53,689 bases of DNA, from the NCBI GenBank assembly GCA_001612575.1, contig LJRV01000092.1, positions 1-53,689 on the forward strand. Reading direction: 5' to 3'. The notes beneath the pieces are model-generated. The model did not search any database and had not been told where the DNA came from. It was given only the letters and a program-made list of their open reading frames with translations. This DNA is from Streptobacillus notomytis (GTDB lineage: Bacteria > Fusobacteriota > Fusobacteriia > Fusobacteriales > Leptotrichiaceae). Both the position numbers and the translations under genes were made by a program. Shown one piece after another: positions 3,785 through 36,860 of this stretch; within the stretch, counting starts at the first letter, position 1; the number at the start of each line of letters is the position of its first letter.

Positions 3785-4318
3785 TTAAAAAGTATATCCT
3801 AACTCTATTCCAATCATTCCCTTTATATCCCCTGTATAAATAGCAATGTTATATCTATCTTTTAATTTTATACCTAATGCAAATTTACTTATAGATGTAA
3901 ATTCTGGACCTTGGATATGTTTATCTTCTGAAATAATTGGAACCTGAAATCCTATTCCTGTTCCTACTTCTATACCTGTATACACTTTAATATTTTCTTT
4001 TATTTTATAATTAAAATCTACTTCTCCTCCTAAAAGTATACTAGGTCTTATTGTTGGTTGACTGGGATTATCAAAGTTAACTGCAACATTTCCTGTAATT
4101 TTAGGCCCAAATGTTATATCTAATTGTTGATTAATCTCTACTTTCCATTCAGGAAATAATGAAATAGAACTTGAAAAAAATTTATAACTTCTAAAAATAT
4201 CTTTTTCTCTACCACTTAAAGTTCCTAAAGAACTTTCTACTCTATATCTTGGTCCAATAATATCTTCTGAAAACGAAATTAATCCTATAAATATTGGTAT
4301 TAATAACAACTTTTTCAT
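3785..4318 (-). CDS. Small outer-membrane beta-barrel protein, paralog 1 (first in cluster)
   Basis: This 177-residue protein has a signal peptide (MKKLLLIPIFIGLISFS), IIGPRYRVESSLG, QLDITFGPKI, GGEVDFNYKIKENIKVYTGIEVGTG, KFALGIKLKDRYNIAIYTG and terminal ELGYTF. It is the promoter-proximal gene of the four-paralog operon and is nearest to the phase-variable-looking promoter, so all four genes should switch together. The ribosome site is GGAG just upstream of the ATG at 4318. No catalytic motif is seen; the molecular role is unknown. Confidence 0.86.
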   Translation of the reverse strand: MKKLLLIPIFIGLISFSEDIIGPRYRVESSLGTLSGREKDIFRSYKFFSSSISLFPEWKVEINQQLDITFGPKITGNVAVNFDNPSQPTIRPSILLGGEVDFNYKIKENIKVYTGIEVGTGIGFQVPIISEDKHIQGPEFTSISKFALGIKLKDRYNIAIYTGDIKGMIGIELGYTF

Positions 4319-21092: not shown

Positions 21093-24000
21093 TTAAAAAT
21101 TGTAATCTATTCCCAAATTTAATCCAACATTTAATTTACTATTTATATTTGCCTTACCTATTACATTTAAACCATCCATAACCTTTAATTTTACACCTAA
21201 ATTATAGTTTGCACTTATCTTATCTAAACCTTTTCCTATTGTCTTATGTAAATTATCTGATAATCTCTGATTTAACTTTATATTTTCAAGGCTGTTATAA
21301 TCAAAAACTAATCTATTATGTACACTTATATACTTATTTAATTTACTATCTATTTCTATTCCTAATTCTACATTATGATTCATTAAGTTTGTTATTTCTA
21401 TATTTCTTAATTCATTTATTATATCAGTATAAGTAATGCTTTCATCTTTTCTTCCCCATACTATTACATAATTAAATGTATAACCTACATATGATTTTAA
21501 TACACTATTTATAGAGTTTATATTAAATTCCATTCCCAGTCTTATACTTGGGTTTATACTTAAACTATGTAATATGTTTGTCTTTTTATTAGTATTACTT
21601 GTTTCATTATATACATCACTTTTACTATATCCTATATTATTATCAGCACTAAGTTTAAAATTATTTAGAAACTTTACACTTACATTTCCACCTATGTTAT
21701 ATAGATTATTTATACTTCTTGCTTTATTACTTCCACTATTTTTAAATTCAACATTTCCATATTGATATATTCCATATAAATTTAAAACATTTCCATTTGA
21801 TAATTTTCTTGAATATCCTATTATTGCTCCATAATTCTTATCTACAAATGGGCTAAATTTTTCCTCATTTAATATATTAGTTCTCACATAAGTATCAAAG
21901 TATAGTCTATTTCCTTTTTCTAAGTTATTTAATATTATATTTGTCCTATTATACTTATTATCTATCTCATTTTTTATTATATTCCCCACTATACTTGCAT
22001 AATTATCTGTAAATATATTTTTAACTTCTGAACTACTTGAACTTAACAACATTGATTTTACAGAACTTGGTATAGCTTTCATTACTCCATATCTACTAAA
22101 GAACATTTTCTTGTTTGTATCATAACTTGGTATGTCCTTTAATTTATTTTCATCTATTTCATCCAATGTTTTAAATTCTTCTTCTAATGTACTCACAAAC
22201 TTTATACTTACTATCTTGTCCTTATTTATTACAACTGGTTTTAAAAAGGGGTTTGACAAATTATTTAAAAAGTCACTATCCTCTTTTAGATAATTTTCCA
22301 TAACTAATTTAGGTCCTGTAATTTCATTATTATTTTTAATATCTTCTTCTTTTAACCTTACTATATATTCTCCAGTTGTTCTAAACTCTTTTATGTTTAT
22401 TTCTTTTCCACTAAACTCTACATCAGATGTATAAGTTCCATGTAGTTTATCTATACTTGTTTTAGTACTATCTATCTTTAATTTTCCATCTGTATATATA
22501 TTCTTTAAATTTATAGTACTTTCTTTATCATCTTTATTTTCTACAACTAATGTTCCTTTTTCAGCTATAGTGTAATCTGATTTACTATCATTTTTTAAAA
22601 CTAGTGTTCCATTTAATACTTGTGAAGGAGCAGTATATTCTTGTTTTCCTGTTAATATAAGCTTTCCTTCTCCATCTTTTCTAAGTCCTGCTTGGGCTAC
22701 ATTAGAGTAAAATAGTTTTTCACTTTCCAGTACCTTGGGAATTTTGTAATCATAATCAAAAGCATAATAATCTCCATCATACCAATTTTTTACTCCCTTT
22801 ATTTTCACAATTTTACTTGTTGTATCTTTTCCATCACCTTTTAATCCACTAACTATATCATTTTCAAAAGTATACTCTTTTCCATTCTTTATATTTACAT
22901 AAAAGTATCTATTTCCATTCTCATCAAATATTTTATCATAGTTTCCCTTAAAATATTTCATTTCATCTATTAGACCAGCATTGAAATCAGATGGTCCTTT
23001 TAATGCCTTCTCTCTATTTGCATTACCCCAACCTACATTATCATCTAAGTATCCACTAATATCATGATTTGCAGTTCCAAGTATTACCTGTTTTACCTGT
23101 TGGTATGTTAAGAAAGGATATTTTTCTTTAATATCATAAGCTAGTCTTGCTATCCTTGGTGATGAAAATGATGATCCAAATTTAGGTTCATCTTGTTCAT
23201 TATCTGGTTTCAATAAACCATTTTCTCCAACAGTAGCTGATCTTAATAATAAGGCTTTAGTTTGTGGATCATCAAAATACCTTTCTGTATATTGATTATT
23301 ATCAGAATCTATATATGATGTTTTTATCTTATCTTTATATTTTTCTACCAATTTTTCATTTGTTCTAAAAGAATTTTTTACAAATATACTCTCACTTCTA
23401 GTAAGTGCTTGCATATTAGGAGACATTATTTGATAAATATTAAGTATGTTATTAGAAAAGAATTCTGTTTTTATAGTGCTATGATTACCATTACCTATAG
23501 CACTTATTAATAACCTTTCATTATATACATAATTTTTATCAATTAATCTATTAGTTAAAAAATCTTCTAAATAGTTTATATCCCTAGGATATATTTTATC
23601 TAAATACCTACTATTACTGTATAAATATCCAAAATTTCTGTTATAGTTAACAATACTATATGACATATTTATTATACCTGCTGTATTAATAACATTATCA
23701 TTATCATCACGTTTAGCTAACTTTATTTTTACATTTTTATTATTAAATACATTTTTTTCAGCTTCACTTACAGAACCATCATTATCTGTGTCCATAAATG
23801 CTTCTGTTACATCGAAGGCATGATTATTAAAAACTCCACCTTCTTCATTTGGATTACTATAATTTTCATTTGAATTTTCTTGTAGGAAACTGTATTTCTC
23901 TTTTGCTTTTTTTCTTGTATATCTAGTTAATATTAGTTCATATATAGTAACAGGATTTTCATTTTCATTTAATGGTGTTTCGGCTTTTTTTACTTCTTGT

Positions 24001-24167
24001 AAAGTTTCGTTTACACCTAAACTATATCTTGAAGTATTACTTAACGGTATATATTCTACTGCACTTTTTCTTAAACTTTTAACTCTATATTCTTCAGCAT
24101 AAAATGATGTACAACTTATTGTTGTAAACAACATTCCAAAACAAAGTCGAAATATCCTACTACTCAT
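21093..24167 (-). CDS. Subtilisin-like (S8) autotransporter, catalytic His not recognisable
   Basis: This predicted type V secreted surface protein of 1024 residues uses the ATG at 24167, which has a GTGAGG site; an upstream in-frame reading has none. A signal peptide (to about YAEEYRVK) leads to a subtilase region with ISAIGNGN (221-228, oxyanion-hole type) and the Ser motif FGSSFSSPR (330-338, Ser 333). The Asp block could be AFMDTDNDG (Asp 126), but no HGTH-like motif is present before NMSYSIVN (167-174). Residues 126-137 (DTDNDGSVSEAE) match a 12-residue EF-hand loop. A beta-helical passenger region and a C-terminal barrel (about 770-1024) ending in YNF follow. It may be inactive or degenerate as a protease. 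Confidence 0.88.
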   Translation of the reverse strand: MSSRIFRLCFGMLFTTISCTSFYAEEYRVKSLRKSAVEYIPLSNTSRYSLGVNETLQEVKKAETPLNENENPVTIYELILTRYTRKKAKEKYSFLQENSNENYSNPNEEGGVFNNHAFDVTEAFMDTDNDGSVSEAEKNVFNNKNVKIKLAKRDDNDNVINTAGIINMSYSIVNYNRNFGYLYSNSRYLDKIYPRDINYLEDFLTNRLIDKNYVYNERLLISAIGNGNHSTIKTEFFSNNILNIYQIMSPNMQALTRSESIFVKNSFRTNEKLVEKYKDKIKTSYIDSDNNQYTERYFDDPQTKALLLRSATVGENGLLKPDNEQDEPKFGSSFSSPRIARLAYDIKEKYPFLTYQQVKQVILGTANHDISGYLDDNVGWGNANREKALKGPSDFNAGLIDEMKYFKGNYDKIFDENGNRYFYVNIKNGKEYTFENDIVSGLKGDGKDTTSKIVKIKGVKNWYDGDYYAFDYDYKIPKVLESEKLFYSNVAQAGLRKDGEGKLILTGKQEYTAPSQVLNGTLVLKNDSKSDYTIAEKGTLVVENKDDKESTINLKNIYTDGKLKIDSTKTSIDKLHGTYTSDVEFSGKEINIKEFRTTGEYIVRLKEEDIKNNNEITGPKLVMENYLKEDSDFLNNLSNPFLKPVVINKDKIVSIKFVSTLEEEFKTLDEIDENKLKDIPSYDTNKKMFFSRYGVMKAIPSSVKSMLLSSSSSEVKNIFTDNYASIVGNIIKNEIDNKYNRTNIILNNLEKGNRLYFDTYVRTNILNEEKFSPFVDKNYGAIIGYSRKLSNGNVLNLYGIYQYGNVEFKNSGSNKARSINNLYNIGGNVSVKFLNNFKLSADNNIGYSKSDVYNETSNTNKKTNILHSLSINPSIRLGMEFNINSINSVLKSYVGYTFNYVIVWGRKDESITYTDIINELRNIEITNLMNHNVELGIEIDSKLNKYISVHNRLVFDYNSLENIKLNQRLSDNLHKTIGKGLDKISANYNLGVKLKVMDGLNVIGKANINSKLNVGLNLGIDYNF

Positions 24168-24198
24168 AAAATCCTCACTTAATGTATAATATATAATT

Positions 24199-24227
24199 AT
24201 TATACCTACCACCTTATTATTTGTCAA
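24199..24227 (-). promoter_or_regulatory. Autotransporter promoter with interrupted G-rich spacer
   Basis: Consensus TTGACA (24227-24222) and TATAAT (24204-24199) on the minus strand flank an optimal 17-bp spacer ending AAGGTGGTAGG. The layout is that of the two G10 promoters in this window, but the G tract is broken, so slippage should be low. Confidence 0.75.
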
Positions 24228-30825: not shown

Positions 30826-30890
30826 TTAAAATTAAAAACTATTTATTGTAAATTTTCTTGATTATTGATACATGTATTAATTTTATTAAA

Positions 30891-30920
30891 AAGATGTTTA
30901 AGTTTTACCCTAAACACCTT
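30891..30920 (-). terminator. Probable terminator of the large OMP pair
   Basis: Ten-base arms (30891-30900 and 30911-30920, one G-U) around a 10-base loop lie just after the stop at 30926. The following minus-strand sequence is T-rich but interrupted. Confidence 0.6.
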
Positions 30921-30925
30921 TAATA

Positions 30926-33900
30926 TTACCACTTATAGTCAATATTTAATATTGCTTTTGCATTTGTTGATTTATACTTGTATGTTGGATATGAATCATT
31001 AGTAAAGTTTACTTGAACTTCTACTTTTGGTTTTACAGTTAATCTATCATTTAAAATTTTAAATTCTCCCTCTATACCAGGTTTTATTGCTATTACTGAT
31101 AAGCCACTTTTAGATTCATATTTAGACTTTTCTTCTTCTATTTTTTTCTTTTCATTATTCCCTATTCCTATTATTCCATTTTCATCCATTAATTTTCTTT
31201 TTATATCTTTTAATACACTGTATAACTTATCTGATTTATACCCACTTAAATATGAAAATTCTAAATTACTTATTAACTTTATTCCATCTACTATTTCATA
31301 ACCTAAACTATTTTTATTATACACCTTATAACTATGAGTAGGGTCTAATAACAATTCTTTTAATACTGGACTTTGTTGTTTTGAAGAACTTGATATAGAA
31401 TTATTTCCATTTTTAAAGTCAAATAATACTATTGCATTTAATCCTGTTTCATTCTTAAACTCAACTTTATCACTTAAATTAGCTTCTATTATACCTTTTA
31501 AATCTCCTAAAGCTAATATTTCCATTCCTTTTTTCTCTAATAATTTAACCTTATTTGAACTAGTTAAGTTTAGTTCTCCTTTTAATCTTAAATTATTGTT
31601 TACTCTATAGTCTACATTATTATCCATCCATGCATTTATTATAGAATAATCCTCATTATCAGAATATGATATTAAATATCTTGCATCTATACTATTTTTT
31701 AACATTAAGTTATTTGTTTTTCTATCATATGTTATTCCTACTCCTACTAATCCTAAATGTTTATGTGTTAATTTTTTACTATCATTCATATCCATATTGT
31801 ATCTATATTTTGATGAAAGTCTTAAAGTAATATCTCCTAGCTTTGTATTTAACTCATTATCTGTGTAAGCTAATAAGACTGTAAAATCTTTGTTCTTATT
31901 GTTTGTATCATTTTTATTATATTTATTAGTATCTATTTTAATTCCATTTTTAATATCTGTTAATATTTTACTTCTTACTTTAATATTTGATTTAAGTTCA
32001 ATATTCTTATTGATGTATCCTAAATTAAATAAAAACTCTTCTTTTTGAACCAAGCTATTAGTCTTGTCTTTTTTAGGTCTTGGTTTACTATATATCTCTT
32101 TACTTTCATTCTCACTATAATCATACATAGTTTCATGTTTTAAAGTTGTCTTTAAATTAATATTTCTGTTTTTATATACTAAACTTCCTTCTCCTCCAAA
32201 TGTTCTATCCTTATCACTCCTTATTATAGAACCTATGTGTACATATGTTTTCCCTATTATTTCTAAATTTCCTACTTTTCCTGATAAAGATACATCTCCC
32301 TTTACTCTACCCATTCTATCTAATACTTCATGTATGTCTTTTAGTTTGTAATTAAAATTTCCATTTATGTTAAAATTACCTAATCTTTGATTTAGATTTA
32401 AGAACCCTTCAAACCTACTTTTCTCATATACTAGTTCTTCAGCAGAATATATTATACCTATCTTTGATTTAGTTGTCTCATAATCTAAATCTAATACTCC
32501 TGATATTAATACCTCATCATTTTTAAATCTTAATCCCTGTGAATGATAAAACTCTTTTCTTGCCATTTCATCTTCTTCATATTTCTTATCCCATAATCCT
32601 CTTAACTTTAACCCCTCTTTTACATTTGCCTCCATTCCACCTTTATGTTGGTATCCTCCATTAAATGTAAGCTCTATATTCTTATTTAACTTCCTTTTAA
32701 AGTTTAATCCAATGTTAGCTATCCCATCTAGTCCTTCAATTGTTTTTAAATTAGTTTTTTTATCCATTTTGTATTTTAAATCTTTTCCTACTACTTCTCC
32801 ACCAAGGAATACAAATAGGTCTTTATTCTTTCCTATTAAAGCTCCTATATTAAGTTCTTTTTTCACTTCATATTTAATTAAAGGATTATTACTAGCTAAT
32901 TGTTTATTATTCTCTTTTTTTTCATGTCTTAATCTTAATTCTGTATTATCTCTTACATATATATTCTTTTTAAATATCTCATTTGATGAACTTGAATTTA
33001 AATCTAATACATCTATTATTGATTTACCACTTAATTTCTCCCCTGTATATTTCAATCCTGTTCTTATCTTATTACCCATTACTATATATCCAGTTTTATG
33101 AAATAGTATACTAGCTTCATATTCTACTTCTATATTAAGGTTATCATTAACCTTGTATTTTAATCCTAATTGCGGACTTATTGTTGCAAAGGAGTTATTA
33201 TTTATAGTAATTGGTCCCCAATCTCTAATAACCTCCACCTCACCATCATCATTAAGTTCACTCCTATCACTAATGATTTGTTTATCTAAATTAGCCCCCA
33301 CTTTACCAACAAGTCCTAACTTACTACTTTCATTTAACCTCTTCTCCCATTCATATCCCACATATCCCCTAAAGCTAAAGCCTTTATTATATATTGAATT
33401 AAGATCATGATTTGTACTATGTTCATCATCTATAAATCGTTGTTCTCTTTTATTATAATGAGCTATATATATTCCAGCTAATACATTATTCTTGTAATCT
33501 AATCCTGCTCCTATTGAAAGATTATACATAAAAAAATTATTAAGTAATTTCCAAGTAGATGCACTTAAATTTAAATCTGTTATTAATTTAAAATTATTCC
33601 CTAGGTTATATCCCAAATTAGCATTTAATGCATAAAGATGTTCTACCCTTATTTCATTATCTGTGCCAGCTAATTTACGAGCTGCATTAAAAAGAGAATA
33701 TGATGTGTTTAAATTAATATCTAAATCCTTTAATTTCTTCTCATACTCATACTTTAAATCTAATTTCTTACTAGAATGTAATTTTAACTCTATACTACCA
33801 AATTCTTTAAAGTCTAGTCCTAATGCTCCATAGTAATTTTGAGGTTTAAATGTTTTAGCTCTGAAATCCAATCCACCAGATAATTTTAAAAATTCATATA

Positions 33901-34189
33901 TTTTAGCAGAACCATAAAGTTCATTCTTTAAAAACATATTCCTTGTACTTAAAATAGTACTCTCACTATTAACCTTTAATAACAACTCTATCTTCTTTGC
34001 CTTACTAAAGTTAAAGAAGTCATCCTCCTCTTTTACTTCATTTACTTTCTTTATTTCATTTGCTTTCTTTGATATAGATGTGTTTCTTCTCTTAGATGAT
34101 AATATTAATGCATTAGTTTCTATATTATCTGATAATGATATATTAACCATCATTATAGATAATAATGTTAAAGTCTTTATTCCCTTCAT
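30926..34189 (-). CDS. Very large outer-membrane beta-barrel protein
   Basis: This 1087-residue protein has a signal peptide (MKGIKTLTLLSIMMVNISLS) and, after a charged linker, almost continuous amphipathic beta strands to a terminal Trp (NIDYKW), a BAM-type C-terminus. Residues from about 430 to the end align by eye with nearly the whole of the neighbouring 680-residue protein (GKNKDLFVFLGGEV, HSQGLRFKNDEVLISGVLDLDY, VGVGITYDRKTNNL, LTSSNKVKLLEKKG). The first roughly 400 residues are an extra beta-rich part (YGALGLDFKEFGSIELKLHSS). No enzymatic motif, plug domain or TonB box is seen. Function unknown; adhesin or large pore are options. It is second in an operon driven by a G10 promoter. Confidence 0.82.
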   Translation of the reverse strand: MKGIKTLTLLSIMMVNISLSDNIETNALILSSKRRNTSISKKANEIKKVNEVKEEDDFFNFSKAKKIELLLKVNSESTILSTRNMFLKNELYGSAKIYEFLKLSGGLDFRAKTFKPQNYYGALGLDFKEFGSIELKLHSSKKLDLKYEYEKKLKDLDINLNTSYSLFNAARKLAGTDNEIRVEHLYALNANLGYNLGNNFKLITDLNLSASTWKLLNNFFMYNLSIGAGLDYKNNVLAGIYIAHYNKREQRFIDDEHSTNHDLNSIYNKGFSFRGYVGYEWEKRLNESSKLGLVGKVGANLDKQIISDRSELNDDGEVEVIRDWGPITINNNSFATISPQLGLKYKVNDNLNIEVEYEASILFHKTGYIVMGNKIRTGLKYTGEKLSGKSIIDVLDLNSSSSNEIFKKNIYVRDNTELRLRHEKKENNKQLASNNPLIKYEVKKELNIGALIGKNKDLFVFLGGEVVGKDLKYKMDKKTNLKTIEGLDGIANIGLNFKRKLNKNIELTFNGGYQHKGGMEANVKEGLKLRGLWDKKYEEDEMARKEFYHSQGLRFKNDEVLISGVLDLDYETTKSKIGIIYSAEELVYEKSRFEGFLNLNQRLGNFNINGNFNYKLKDIHEVLDRMGRVKGDVSLSGKVGNLEIIGKTYVHIGSIIRSDKDRTFGGEGSLVYKNRNINLKTTLKHETMYDYSENESKEIYSKPRPKKDKTNSLVQKEEFLFNLGYINKNIELKSNIKVRSKILTDIKNGIKIDTNKYNKNDTNNKNKDFTVLLAYTDNELNTKLGDITLRLSSKYRYNMDMNDSKKLTHKHLGLVGVGITYDRKTNNLMLKNSIDARYLISYSDNEDYSIINAWMDNNVDYRVNNNLRLKGELNLTSSNKVKLLEKKGMEILALGDLKGIIEANLSDKVEFKNETGLNAIVLFDFKNGNNSISSSSKQQSPVLKELLLDPTHSYKVYNKNSLGYEIVDGIKLISNLEFSYLSGYKSDKLYSVLKDIKRKLMDENGIIGIGNNEKKKIEEEKSKYESKSGLSVIAIKPGIEGEFKILNDRLTVKPKVEVQVNFTNDSYPTYKYKSTNAKAILNIDYKW

Positions 34190-34203: not shown

Positions 34204-36246
34204 CTACCATCTATATTCCACTTGTAATCTTGCTTTTACATTTACTGCTTTGTATTCTAACTTACTCTTATCCTTACCTACCTTAGCACTTACATCTACC
34301 CCTAAGCTTGGCTTAACATGTAGCTTATCATTTAAGTATTTTAAACTTAATTCTGCACTCGGTGATATTAATAAGATTGCTTTGTTATCTTTTCCAAATG
34401 ATGTCTCTTCTTCTGTTATCTTCTTAAGATCTCCCTCTGTATGTGTTATTATCCCATCTTCTCCTATTCTTTCTCTCTTTATCATTGTTAAACTCTCATA
34501 TAACTTATCTGATTTTAATCCATATGCAAAACTTGTATCTATTCTACCTACTATATCTATATTATTATTTAATTCATATGTTACCTTATTTTCATTTGAA
34601 ACCTTAAATGCATATTTTACATCTAAGTGTAAACTTTCATCTCCATGTTTATTCATATTACCACCATTATTATTGTTATGTTCTTTAAACAGTGATATAG
34701 TCTTTAACCCTAGTGTTGAAGTAAGGTCTGTTTTGTTATTTAGTTTGTATTCTACTGTCCCCTTTGTGTCTGCTAATAATAGTATTTCATTTTTATCTGA
34801 GTTCTTGTCTATAAATGAGAATCTATTTGAACTTGTAAAGTTTACCTCTCCCTTTAATGATAACTTATCATTTACCTTATACTCTTGTCTATTATCACTC
34901 CAAAAGTTTATTACACTAAATGTCTTCTTATCCTTATACCCTATCTCATATCTTATATCAAAACTATGTTTTAATTTAAGTTCCTTTACCTTACTCTCAT
35001 ATGTTATTCCTGGTCCTACAAAGGCATATTGGTTATATGCTTCAATTTCACTAGCATTATCTTTAATATTTACTACCCCTACATATCTTCCTGCTAACCT
35101 AAAGTTGAAAGCCCCTAATTTATATCCTGCTCTACTATCAACATATATATTAGAGATTGTTTTTTTAATGTCTGTATTATTAGATGTTATTTGATTATTT
35201 TTCTTGTATTCATCCATTTCTAATTCTATTTTTTTCTGTTTTTCTTTCTTAAGATCTACCCTACCCTTTATTAGCCCATTTGTTTCAAAGTCTATATTCT
35301 TATTAGCATACTTTAATCCTAGTTTTAATTCTGGTTGTAATCTTATCTTTAATTTATCAGGATTTATTTTATCTACTTGTCTAAAGGCTAACTTATTATT
35401 AAAGGCTGTTGATAGCTCAAAGTTATTAATAGTATATTTAACTTCATTCTCACTTGTTATTTGATAATCCTTCTTACTTGGTATTATTGTCCCTAAATAT
35501 ACTATACCCTTATTATATGTCTTTAAATTTCCTACATTACCTCTTGCACTTAATTCTATGTTTAATCTTCCTCCTTTTGAATAAGTGCCGTTGTCTTTAT
35601 TTGTGTCTGGTCTTTCATACTTAAACTTATGATCTATGTCTAACTCTATATCATAGTTTGATTTATTTGTCTTTAAATTTAAAAAGCTTTCTAATCTATT
35701 ATTTGAATTTGCTGCATATCCTGCTGTATATATTACTCCACTTTGTAGTTTAAATAGTTTATGGTTATAATCTACTACTCCTGAAAATAAAGTCTCTTCT
35801 CCTTTAAATCTTAATCCTTGTCCACGGTAATATCTTTTTAGTTTATATTTGTCTTTTTCTATTTCTTCTTTCCATTCTCCTCTACTTTTTAATACTTCTC
35901 TTATATTTTCTTCAAAGGCTTTCTTATTCATTGCTTTATCATTATATTGATAGGCTGCATTTAATATTAAGCCTATATCTTTTGTTATTGCTTTTTTTAC
36001 ATTTATTCCTAAAAGGATTTCTCCTCCAAAGTTAGTATCTTTATCTAAGTTTACTTCACCTCCTACAAATGTAAATACTTCTTTGTTTTTACCAAATATT
36101 CCTCCCCAGTTTAATTCTGTTGATGCTTTTTTGGTAAAGGCATTTTCATAACCAAATTCTGTTTTACTATCGTTTTTAACGTAGTATTCTGCACTTAATG
36201 ATGCTACTCCTATAGCTAATAAGCTTATCATATTATACTTTGACAT
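34204..36246 (-). CDS. Large outer-membrane beta-barrel protein, paralog of the next gene
   Basis: This 680-residue protein has a signal peptide ending near LSAEYYVK and repeated amphipathic strands through to a terminal Trp (QVEYRW). Shared blocks with the 1087-residue neighbour are GKNKEVFTFVGGEV, YRGQGLRFKGEETLFSGVVDYN, FVGPGITYESKVKELKLKHSFDIRYE, NFTSSNRFSFIDKNS and YGLKSDKLYESL. A GGAGG site precedes ATG 36246. It is first in the operon and 14 bases from the second gene. The two look like a duplication followed by N-terminal extension of the downstream copy. Function not recognised. Confidence 0.82.
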   Translation of the reverse strand: MSKYNMISLLAIGVASLSAEYYVKNDSKTEFGYENAFTKKASTELNWGGIFGKNKEVFTFVGGEVNLDKDTNFGGEILLGINVKKAITKDIGLILNAAYQYNDKAMNKKAFEENIREVLKSRGEWKEEIEKDKYKLKRYYRGQGLRFKGEETLFSGVVDYNHKLFKLQSGVIYTAGYAANSNNRLESFLNLKTNKSNYDIELDIDHKFKYERPDTNKDNGTYSKGGRLNIELSARGNVGNLKTYNKGIVYLGTIIPSKKDYQITSENEVKYTINNFELSTAFNNKLAFRQVDKINPDKLKIRLQPELKLGLKYANKNIDFETNGLIKGRVDLKKEKQKKIELEMDEYKKNNQITSNNTDIKKTISNIYVDSRAGYKLGAFNFRLAGRYVGVVNIKDNASEIEAYNQYAFVGPGITYESKVKELKLKHSFDIRYEIGYKDKKTFSVINFWSDNRQEYKVNDKLSLKGEVNFTSSNRFSFIDKNSDKNEILLLADTKGTVEYKLNNKTDLTSTLGLKTISLFKEHNNNNGGNMNKHGDESLHLDVKYAFKVSNENKVTYELNNNIDIVGRIDTSFAYGLKSDKLYESLTMIKRERIGEDGIITHTEGDLKKITEEETSFGKDNKAILLISPSAELSLKYLNDKLHVKPSLGVDVSAKVGKDKSKLEYKAVNVKARLQVEYRW

Positions 36247-36292
36247 CTTTCCTCCTATATTTATTATTAATATCTTTCATTGTTTTCAGTTA

Positions 36293-36323
36293 ATTATACC
36301 CCCCCCCCTGACCTTTTTGTCAA
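36293..36323 (-). promoter_or_regulatory. Promoter with G10 tract in the spacer (putative phase-variable)
   Basis: On the minus strand consensus TTGACA (36323-36318) and TATAAT (36298-36293) are separated by 19 bp, made of nine mixed bases and ten consecutive G (36308-36299). At 19 bp it should be weak; loss of two G would make it optimal. It drives the two large barrel genes. From 36324 to 36453 nothing else is recognised. The switch is inferred. Confidence 0.85.
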
Positions 36324-36453
36324 TGATTAATAAAGTATCATAAACTTCATAAAATCTAGCTTTGTGAATAAATTCTCTAATCATATTATTACAACTTTAA
36401 TTAAAAAACTGAAACTATATTTTTATTTAAAATTTAATAGATTTCAAATAAAA

Positions 36454-36491
36454 AATGTCTTAAAACCTTTCTAAACTAGTTTTAAGACATT
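36454..36491 (-). terminator. Strong terminator of the XRE regulator gene
   Basis: Perfect 13-bp arms (36454-36466 and 36479-36491) enclose a 12-base loop and are followed by a T run on the minus strand. It lies four bases after the regulator's stop codon. Confidence 0.85.
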
Positions 36492-36494
36492 AAG

Positions 36495-36860
36495 TTATTT
36501 ATCAAATTTAGATTTATAGAACATTTCATTCATAACTTCTAAAAGTTTCTTTTTATCATCTTCATCTACATTTTTATCATTAAAGAATAAAGTCGCTTTT
36601 TTTACTATATCATTTAACTCTACAAATTCTTCTATGTTAGCACCAGCTAAATTCATGATATTTATTTTATCTAAAGAATAAACTTCACAAAGTCCTGCCA
36701 AAACTTTTATAGATGTCTTATTATTTTCACCATCTTCTATTCTCTTTATATTAGTATGTGCATAACTTATTCCTTTTTCATTTAATTTACCTTCAACTTC
36801 CCTTAATGAATATCCTTTTCTTTCTCTGGCATTCTTTAAAGTTTGTCCTAGATCCATCAT
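36495..36860 (-). CDS. XRE-family helix-turn-helix regulator
   Basis: This protein has an N-terminal HTH_XRE domain (MDLGQTLKNARERKGYSLREVEGKL, with recognition-helix region SYAHTNIKRIEDGENN, about residues 8-60). A short acidic C-terminal helix follows (NDKNVDEDDKKKLLEVM). ATG 36860 or the adjacent ATG 36857 is chosen because GGAGGGAAGTTT sits directly upstream; earlier in-frame codons lie in the promoter. That gives 120-121 residues. It is divergent from a 65-residue membrane protein across a symmetric promoter region and is likely autoregulatory. Role otherwise unknown: phage-type repressor, antitoxin or dedicated switch. Confidence 0.85.
   Translation of the reverse strand: MMDLGQTLKNARERKGYSLREVEGKLNEKGISYAHTNIKRIEDGENNKTSIKVLAGLCEVYSLDKINIMNLAGANIEEFVELNDIVKKATLFFNDKNVDEDDKKKLLEVMNEMFYKSKFDK

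Follow-up and report, generated by a model that had tools for sequence, protein, structure and literature searches.

The window, a stretch of 53,689 nucleotides, is contig 92 of a Streptobacillus genome close to that of S. moniliformis. On its minus strand, at positions 36323-36293, it carries a promoter that reads TTGACA AAAAGGTCA GGGGGGGGGG TATAAT. The -35 hexamer TTGACA (36318..36323) is read directly from the sequence and is followed by a 9-bp segment, AAAAGGTCA (36309..36317), that is the same in the S. moniliformis type strain. A run of ten G residues (36299..36308), the candidate slippage site, then leads into the -10 hexamer TATAAT (36293..36298), giving a spacer of 9 + 10 = 19 bp. A ribosome binding site, AGGAGG (36251..36256), can also be read directly, and the ATG of the first gene lies 47 bases downstream of the -10 box. 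The promoter is of the sigma-70 type, and a slippage-prone G tract determines the distance between its -35 and -10 hexamers. The homopolymer lies between two recognizable boxes, as in known phase-variable promoters of the spacer-length type.

Two open reading frames follow on the same strand, both real, co-directional, and 14 bp apart. The first (34204..36246) encodes a 680-amino-acid large outer-membrane beta-barrel protein with a signal peptide and a C-terminal aromatic residue, and the second (30926..34189) encodes a protein of 1,087 amino acids. Terminator-like hairpins flank the unit on the minus strand. One (36445..36500; -15.6 kcal/mol, z -4.3) follows the upstream helix-turn-helix (HTH) gene and has a T-rich tail; its stem is so rich in A/T that a consensus terminator scan missed it, and it would insulate the focus promoter from the HTH gene. 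The other (30885..30925; -14.2 kcal/mol, z -3.2) follows the 1,087-aa gene and precedes a T run. With hairpins bounding both ends, the simplest reading is a two-gene operon, as the arrangement suggests, in which the 1,087-aa gene is probably cotranscribed with the 680-aa gene.

The initial annotation described these as two giant barrel genes, a description that suits the 680-aa protein and the C-terminal ∼650 aa of the 1,087-aa protein. An AlphaFold model of the 680-aa protein, built from 14 paralogues, has ∼28 beta strands (pLDDT 78, pTM 0.66). Its sequence found no match among PDB sequences, and neither focus barrel fell into a significant Pfam family. The best Foldseek matches of the model were generic large barrels, e.g., LptD and TonB-dependent receptors, at TM scores of 0.25-0.40 and rmsd >11 Å; with no PDB or Pfam match and only generic structural matches, we do not assign the protein to the LptD or TonB-dependent transporter barrels. 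In the 1,087-aa protein, the C-terminal ∼650 aa form a barrel of the 680-aa family, which a structure model supports, while the first ∼400 residues have no confident model. The N-terminal ∼390 aa occur as a separate open reading frame at several paralogous loci, so the 1,087-aa gene looks like a fusion of this ∼390-aa unit with a 680-like barrel.

Paralogues of the 680-aa protein are numerous within the genus (16 matches in S. moniliformis and 13 in the source genome, some of them fragments), and a search of genome contigs found no relatives outside it. Likewise, among 33 genomes of the family, relatives of the 1,087-aa protein were found in this genus only, and a plasmid search gave no match. 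S. moniliformis also holds a full-length copy (C1, 72083-74089) that is 94% identical to the focus protein and has no start, signal peptide, or promoter, as well as a partial 94% copy (902678-903274) adjoining another tract promoter. These two copies are possible silent donors or rearrangement scars. Gene conversion from silent cassettes was considered as the main mechanism and rejected because the focus genes are preceded by a promoter of their own; at most, it would be an additional process.

The same promoter module occurs elsewhere in the window. At the first locus, 4380-4351 on the minus strand reads TTGACA AAATATGT G10 TATAAT, with a spacer of 18 bp, and drives a gene (3785..4318, minus strand) for a 177-aa small outer-membrane protein of the GPRYR-motif family. 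The initial annotation gave both loci the layout of TTGACA, nine bases, G10, and TATAAT; this is exact for the 19-bp focus promoter, but only eight bases precede the G10 of the first locus. Within the window, G9 runs occur at these two places only, against a mean of 0.02 in shuffled sequence. A third member, TTGACA-N17-TATAAT (24199..24227, minus strand), has an interrupted G-rich spacer, AAGGTGGTAGG, and is presumably of a locked type. It lies upstream of a subtilase autotransporter gene (21093-24227, minus strand), identified by Pfam. The TTG that a simple open reading frame finder takes as its start (24227) belongs to the -35 hexamer, so the true start must lie further downstream.

Across the source genome, the pattern TTGAC..G6+..TATAAT was found 21 times and the reversed-pattern control 0 times; two more tract promoters have TACAAT or TATACT as the -10 box. 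The focus promoter, noted initially as a second, independent promoter, is present as described, yet it is one of ∼23 rather than one of a pair. Runs of eight or more G number 27 in this genome, and 23 of them sit in promoter spacers. The remaining four, G9-G10 in length, lie in signal-peptide codons (two tracts, contig 236, 18245 and 20764), in the gap between ribosome binding site and ATG (contig 347, 26577), and in the coding sequence of a small outer-membrane protein (contig 497, 9326). All four are at the start of surface-protein genes and may form another class of slippage sites, one that acts on translation. The highly fragmented assembly (1.73 Mb, 823 contigs, 3.17% contamination) is broken up at these repeats, with many contigs ending close to tract genes. 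MutS is present in the genome, so the G tracts must persist despite mismatch repair.

Every readable open reading frame downstream of these promoters encodes a surface protein (one tract, on contig 265, is at a contig end, with its downstream gene outside view), and the proteins belong to few families. Small outer-membrane proteins with the GPRYR motif follow many of the promoters, that of the first locus among them. YadA-like trimeric autotransporters, with head, stalk, and anchor domains recognized by Pfam, often stand behind a 180-aa accessory open reading frame. A pertactin-like autotransporter, a family of 458-483-aa proteins, and the large-barrel pair of the focus locus complete the set. 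Combinatorial surface states had been proposed from two loci; the tracts are indeed independent, but by the genome-wide pattern count such states would concern roughly two dozen loci.

The module is concentrated in this genus, each species being represented by one genome. The S. moniliformis type strain has 22 tract promoters under the strict pattern, or 25 once variant -10 boxes are allowed, and two further Streptobacillus genomes, G002 and G003, have 14 and 5, respectively. Other genera of the family have 0-4 and other families of the order 0-1. In a Clostridia control, 3 of 245 genomes had any such site, and the five sites in total are too few for a survey of spacer preference. Outside the phylum, a rabbit-gut Bacilli metagenome-assembled genome of 1.0 Mb (Lapin-033__bin54) carries ∼20 poly-G spacer promoters, with spacers mostly of 19 bp (18-21), an apparent case of convergent evolution with Streptobacillus.

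Between Streptobacillus species, we compared six orthologous promoters whose flanking sequence can be aligned on each side. The spacer length differs at five of the six, while the flanks are mostly well conserved. The first locus has an 18-bp spacer (G10) in the window genome and in G002 and a 19-bp spacer (G11) in S. moniliformis. Other orthologous spacers are 18 versus 19 bp (L116/L092), 20 versus 19 bp (L122/L102), 17 versus 19 bp (L117/L087), and 20, 17, and 16 bp (L109/L103/L293); a G5 control promoter nearby is unchanged (16/16). The focus promoter is the same in both genomes that have it (G10, 19 bp), and its surroundings show one substitution in 431 bp, compared with 5-55 at the remaining five, which makes the unchanged focus tract uninformative. 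With five of six orthologous tracts differing, the first locus included, the initial proposal of slippage-prone spacer promoters before outer-membrane genes, and of tracts independent of one another at several loci, is supported.

Homopolymer lengths are platform dependent: the S. moniliformis genome was determined by Sanger and 454 sequencing (PMC3035246), long homopolymers are prone to miscalls in 454 and short-read data, and the fragmentation of the source genome near tract genes adds to the concern. The lengths seen could thus be sequencing or assembly artifacts that permit no inference on states. We regard this as quite unlikely because genomes that were assembled independently carry tracts at the same orthologous sites, which no artifact can explain, and several of the spacer differences between species also include non-G bases. 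A neutral origin is less likely still. Spacer sequence is weakly constrained in promoters, and G runs might have expanded there as a mutational by-product, leaving promoter activity about equal at all lengths seen. However, this AT-rich genome has long G runs at surface genes and nowhere else, and the tracts have been kept at orthologous sites between species while adjacent bases changed. We give this explanation very little weight.

What a 19-bp spacer means for expression is a separate question. In S. moniliformis, TTGACA/TATAAT sites without a long tract (n = 45) peak at 17 bp (23/45), with 35/45 at 16-18 bp, whereas the tract promoters peak at 19 bp (14/25), with 8/25 at 16-18 bp (Fisher P 0.0003). 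Interruption of a G-rich tract should make slippage rarer, and promoters of this kind have spacers of 16-18 bp; for example, two nonslipping homologous promoters of S. moniliformis, at 323675 (GGGGGAGGA) and 1072954 (GGGGGTGGGT), are both 17 bp, and each drives an intact paralogue of the focus gene. In addition, the G-tract promoter of Treponema pallidum tp0126 is transcribed best at 17 bp (PMC7864442). Together, the 17-bp peak of tract-free sites, the interrupted tracts, and tp0126 favor 19 bp as a weak spacing.

The G tract may instead be a fixed structural element, either an A-like G-tract helix that needs 18-19 bp or a regulator site, in which case 19 bp would be fully active and any change of length incidental. 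It is consistent with this that 19 bp is the commonest spacing both in S. moniliformis and in the Bacilli genome with its 20 such promoters; if 19 bp were off, most loci would be in a low state. Moreover, in meningococcal porA, 11G, the longest of three tracts compared, expresses most, with 10G at half and 9G at a thirteenth of that level (PMC3639595). Yet a fixed element sits poorly with orthologous tracts that change length between species, with interrupted relatives and tp0126 at the shorter spacings, and with the four like tracts in signal-peptide or coding sequence or in the gap before an ATG, where promoter spacing cannot be set. On balance, we think a fixed element improbable, though it deserves more credit than either artifact or neutral expansion. 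For the focus locus, we lean toward 19 bp being a reduced state, and the initial prediction that 19 bp is weak or off, and 18 bp partly on, is plausible given the spacer lengths of related promoters.

Length distributions offer some further context. The 19-bp mode in S. moniliformis is sharper than in shuffles (P 0.012), but its spacers vary no less than shuffled ones (P 0.47); spacer variance is reduced relative to shuffles in G002 (P 0.012) and not in the source genome. The idea that spacer length is held tighter than the number of G residues, as if selected, was dropped given these inconsistent results across the three genomes. In a broad scan of many taxa that required at least nine G, the matches listed comprise at least 120 poly-G promoters, of which 31 have spacers of 15-16 bp, 5 of 17 bp, and 79 of 18-20 bp; the scarcity of 17 bp among these listed matches is only suggestive. 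By a crude test, 66 of the 95 listed matches with a readable downstream open reading frame appear to have an exported or membrane-bound product.

We now have a promoter anatomy that is read directly, its recurrence across the genome only at surface genes, and a change in length of orthologous tracts between species. Altogether, slipped-strand phase variation of transcription is by far the most convincing explanation, and a probable one, for the 680/1,087-aa pair as one of about two dozen surface loci. Under slipped-strand control, DNA polymerase would slip at the G10 tract within a strain, leaving daughter cells with spacers of 18, 17, or 20 bp. RNA polymerase would read the -35/-10 spacing as promoter strength, and transcription of the two barrel genes would then vary from cell to cell. 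With about two dozen surface genes behind the same module, a clone would be a mixture of surface states, which may serve interaction with the host. A broader proposal, which we put forward tentatively, is a genome-wide stochastic surface regulon built on one shared slippage module, with a default spacing one or two bases off a working 17 bp, occasionally locked at 16-18 bp by interruption of the tract, and independently arisen in distant gut bacteria.

Streptobacillus is rat associated and causes rat-bite fever. If roughly two dozen surface promoters do slip independently, this would explain antigenic heterogeneity and would complicate serology and thinking about vaccines. The tracts also provide strain-level markers. 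In addition, near-identical promoters with spacers of 15-21 bp, some slipping and some locked, make a natural series for the effect of G-tract spacers on promoter strength.

None of the literature that we searched describes phase variation for Streptobacillus. The mechanism of spacer slippage is already known from porA and tp0126, while a fusobacterial genus with this mechanism at about two dozen loci, for several surface families, appears to be undescribed in the searchable literature. A close parallel is Neisseria meningitidis porA, which likewise has a poly-G tract (G9-G11) between its -35 and -10 boxes and an outer-membrane protein gene downstream, with graded expression to be expected (PMC3639595). 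However, porA is a single locus whose length dependence has been measured, whereas Streptobacillus has ∼23-25 loci with one promoter module, known from sequence alone. The adhesins behind several of the Streptobacillus poly-G promoters resemble the YadA family of trimeric autotransporters in their head, stalk, and anchor domains, but this type of protein is not the one at the focus locus, with its barrels outside any significant Pfam family. The T. pallidum tp0126 gene, an OmpW homologue, and the poly-G tpr promoters also combine poly-G with outer-membrane protein genes, with the best spacing at 17 bp (PMC7864442), though T. pallidum has fewer promoters of exactly this geometry, and the tpr poly-G adjoins the transcription start rather than lying between clear boxes. 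Finally, expression of the Neisseria outer-membrane protein gene opc is likewise set by the length of a homopolymer in its promoter (PMC3447861), but there the tract is poly-C and overlaps the -35 region (PMC7864442).
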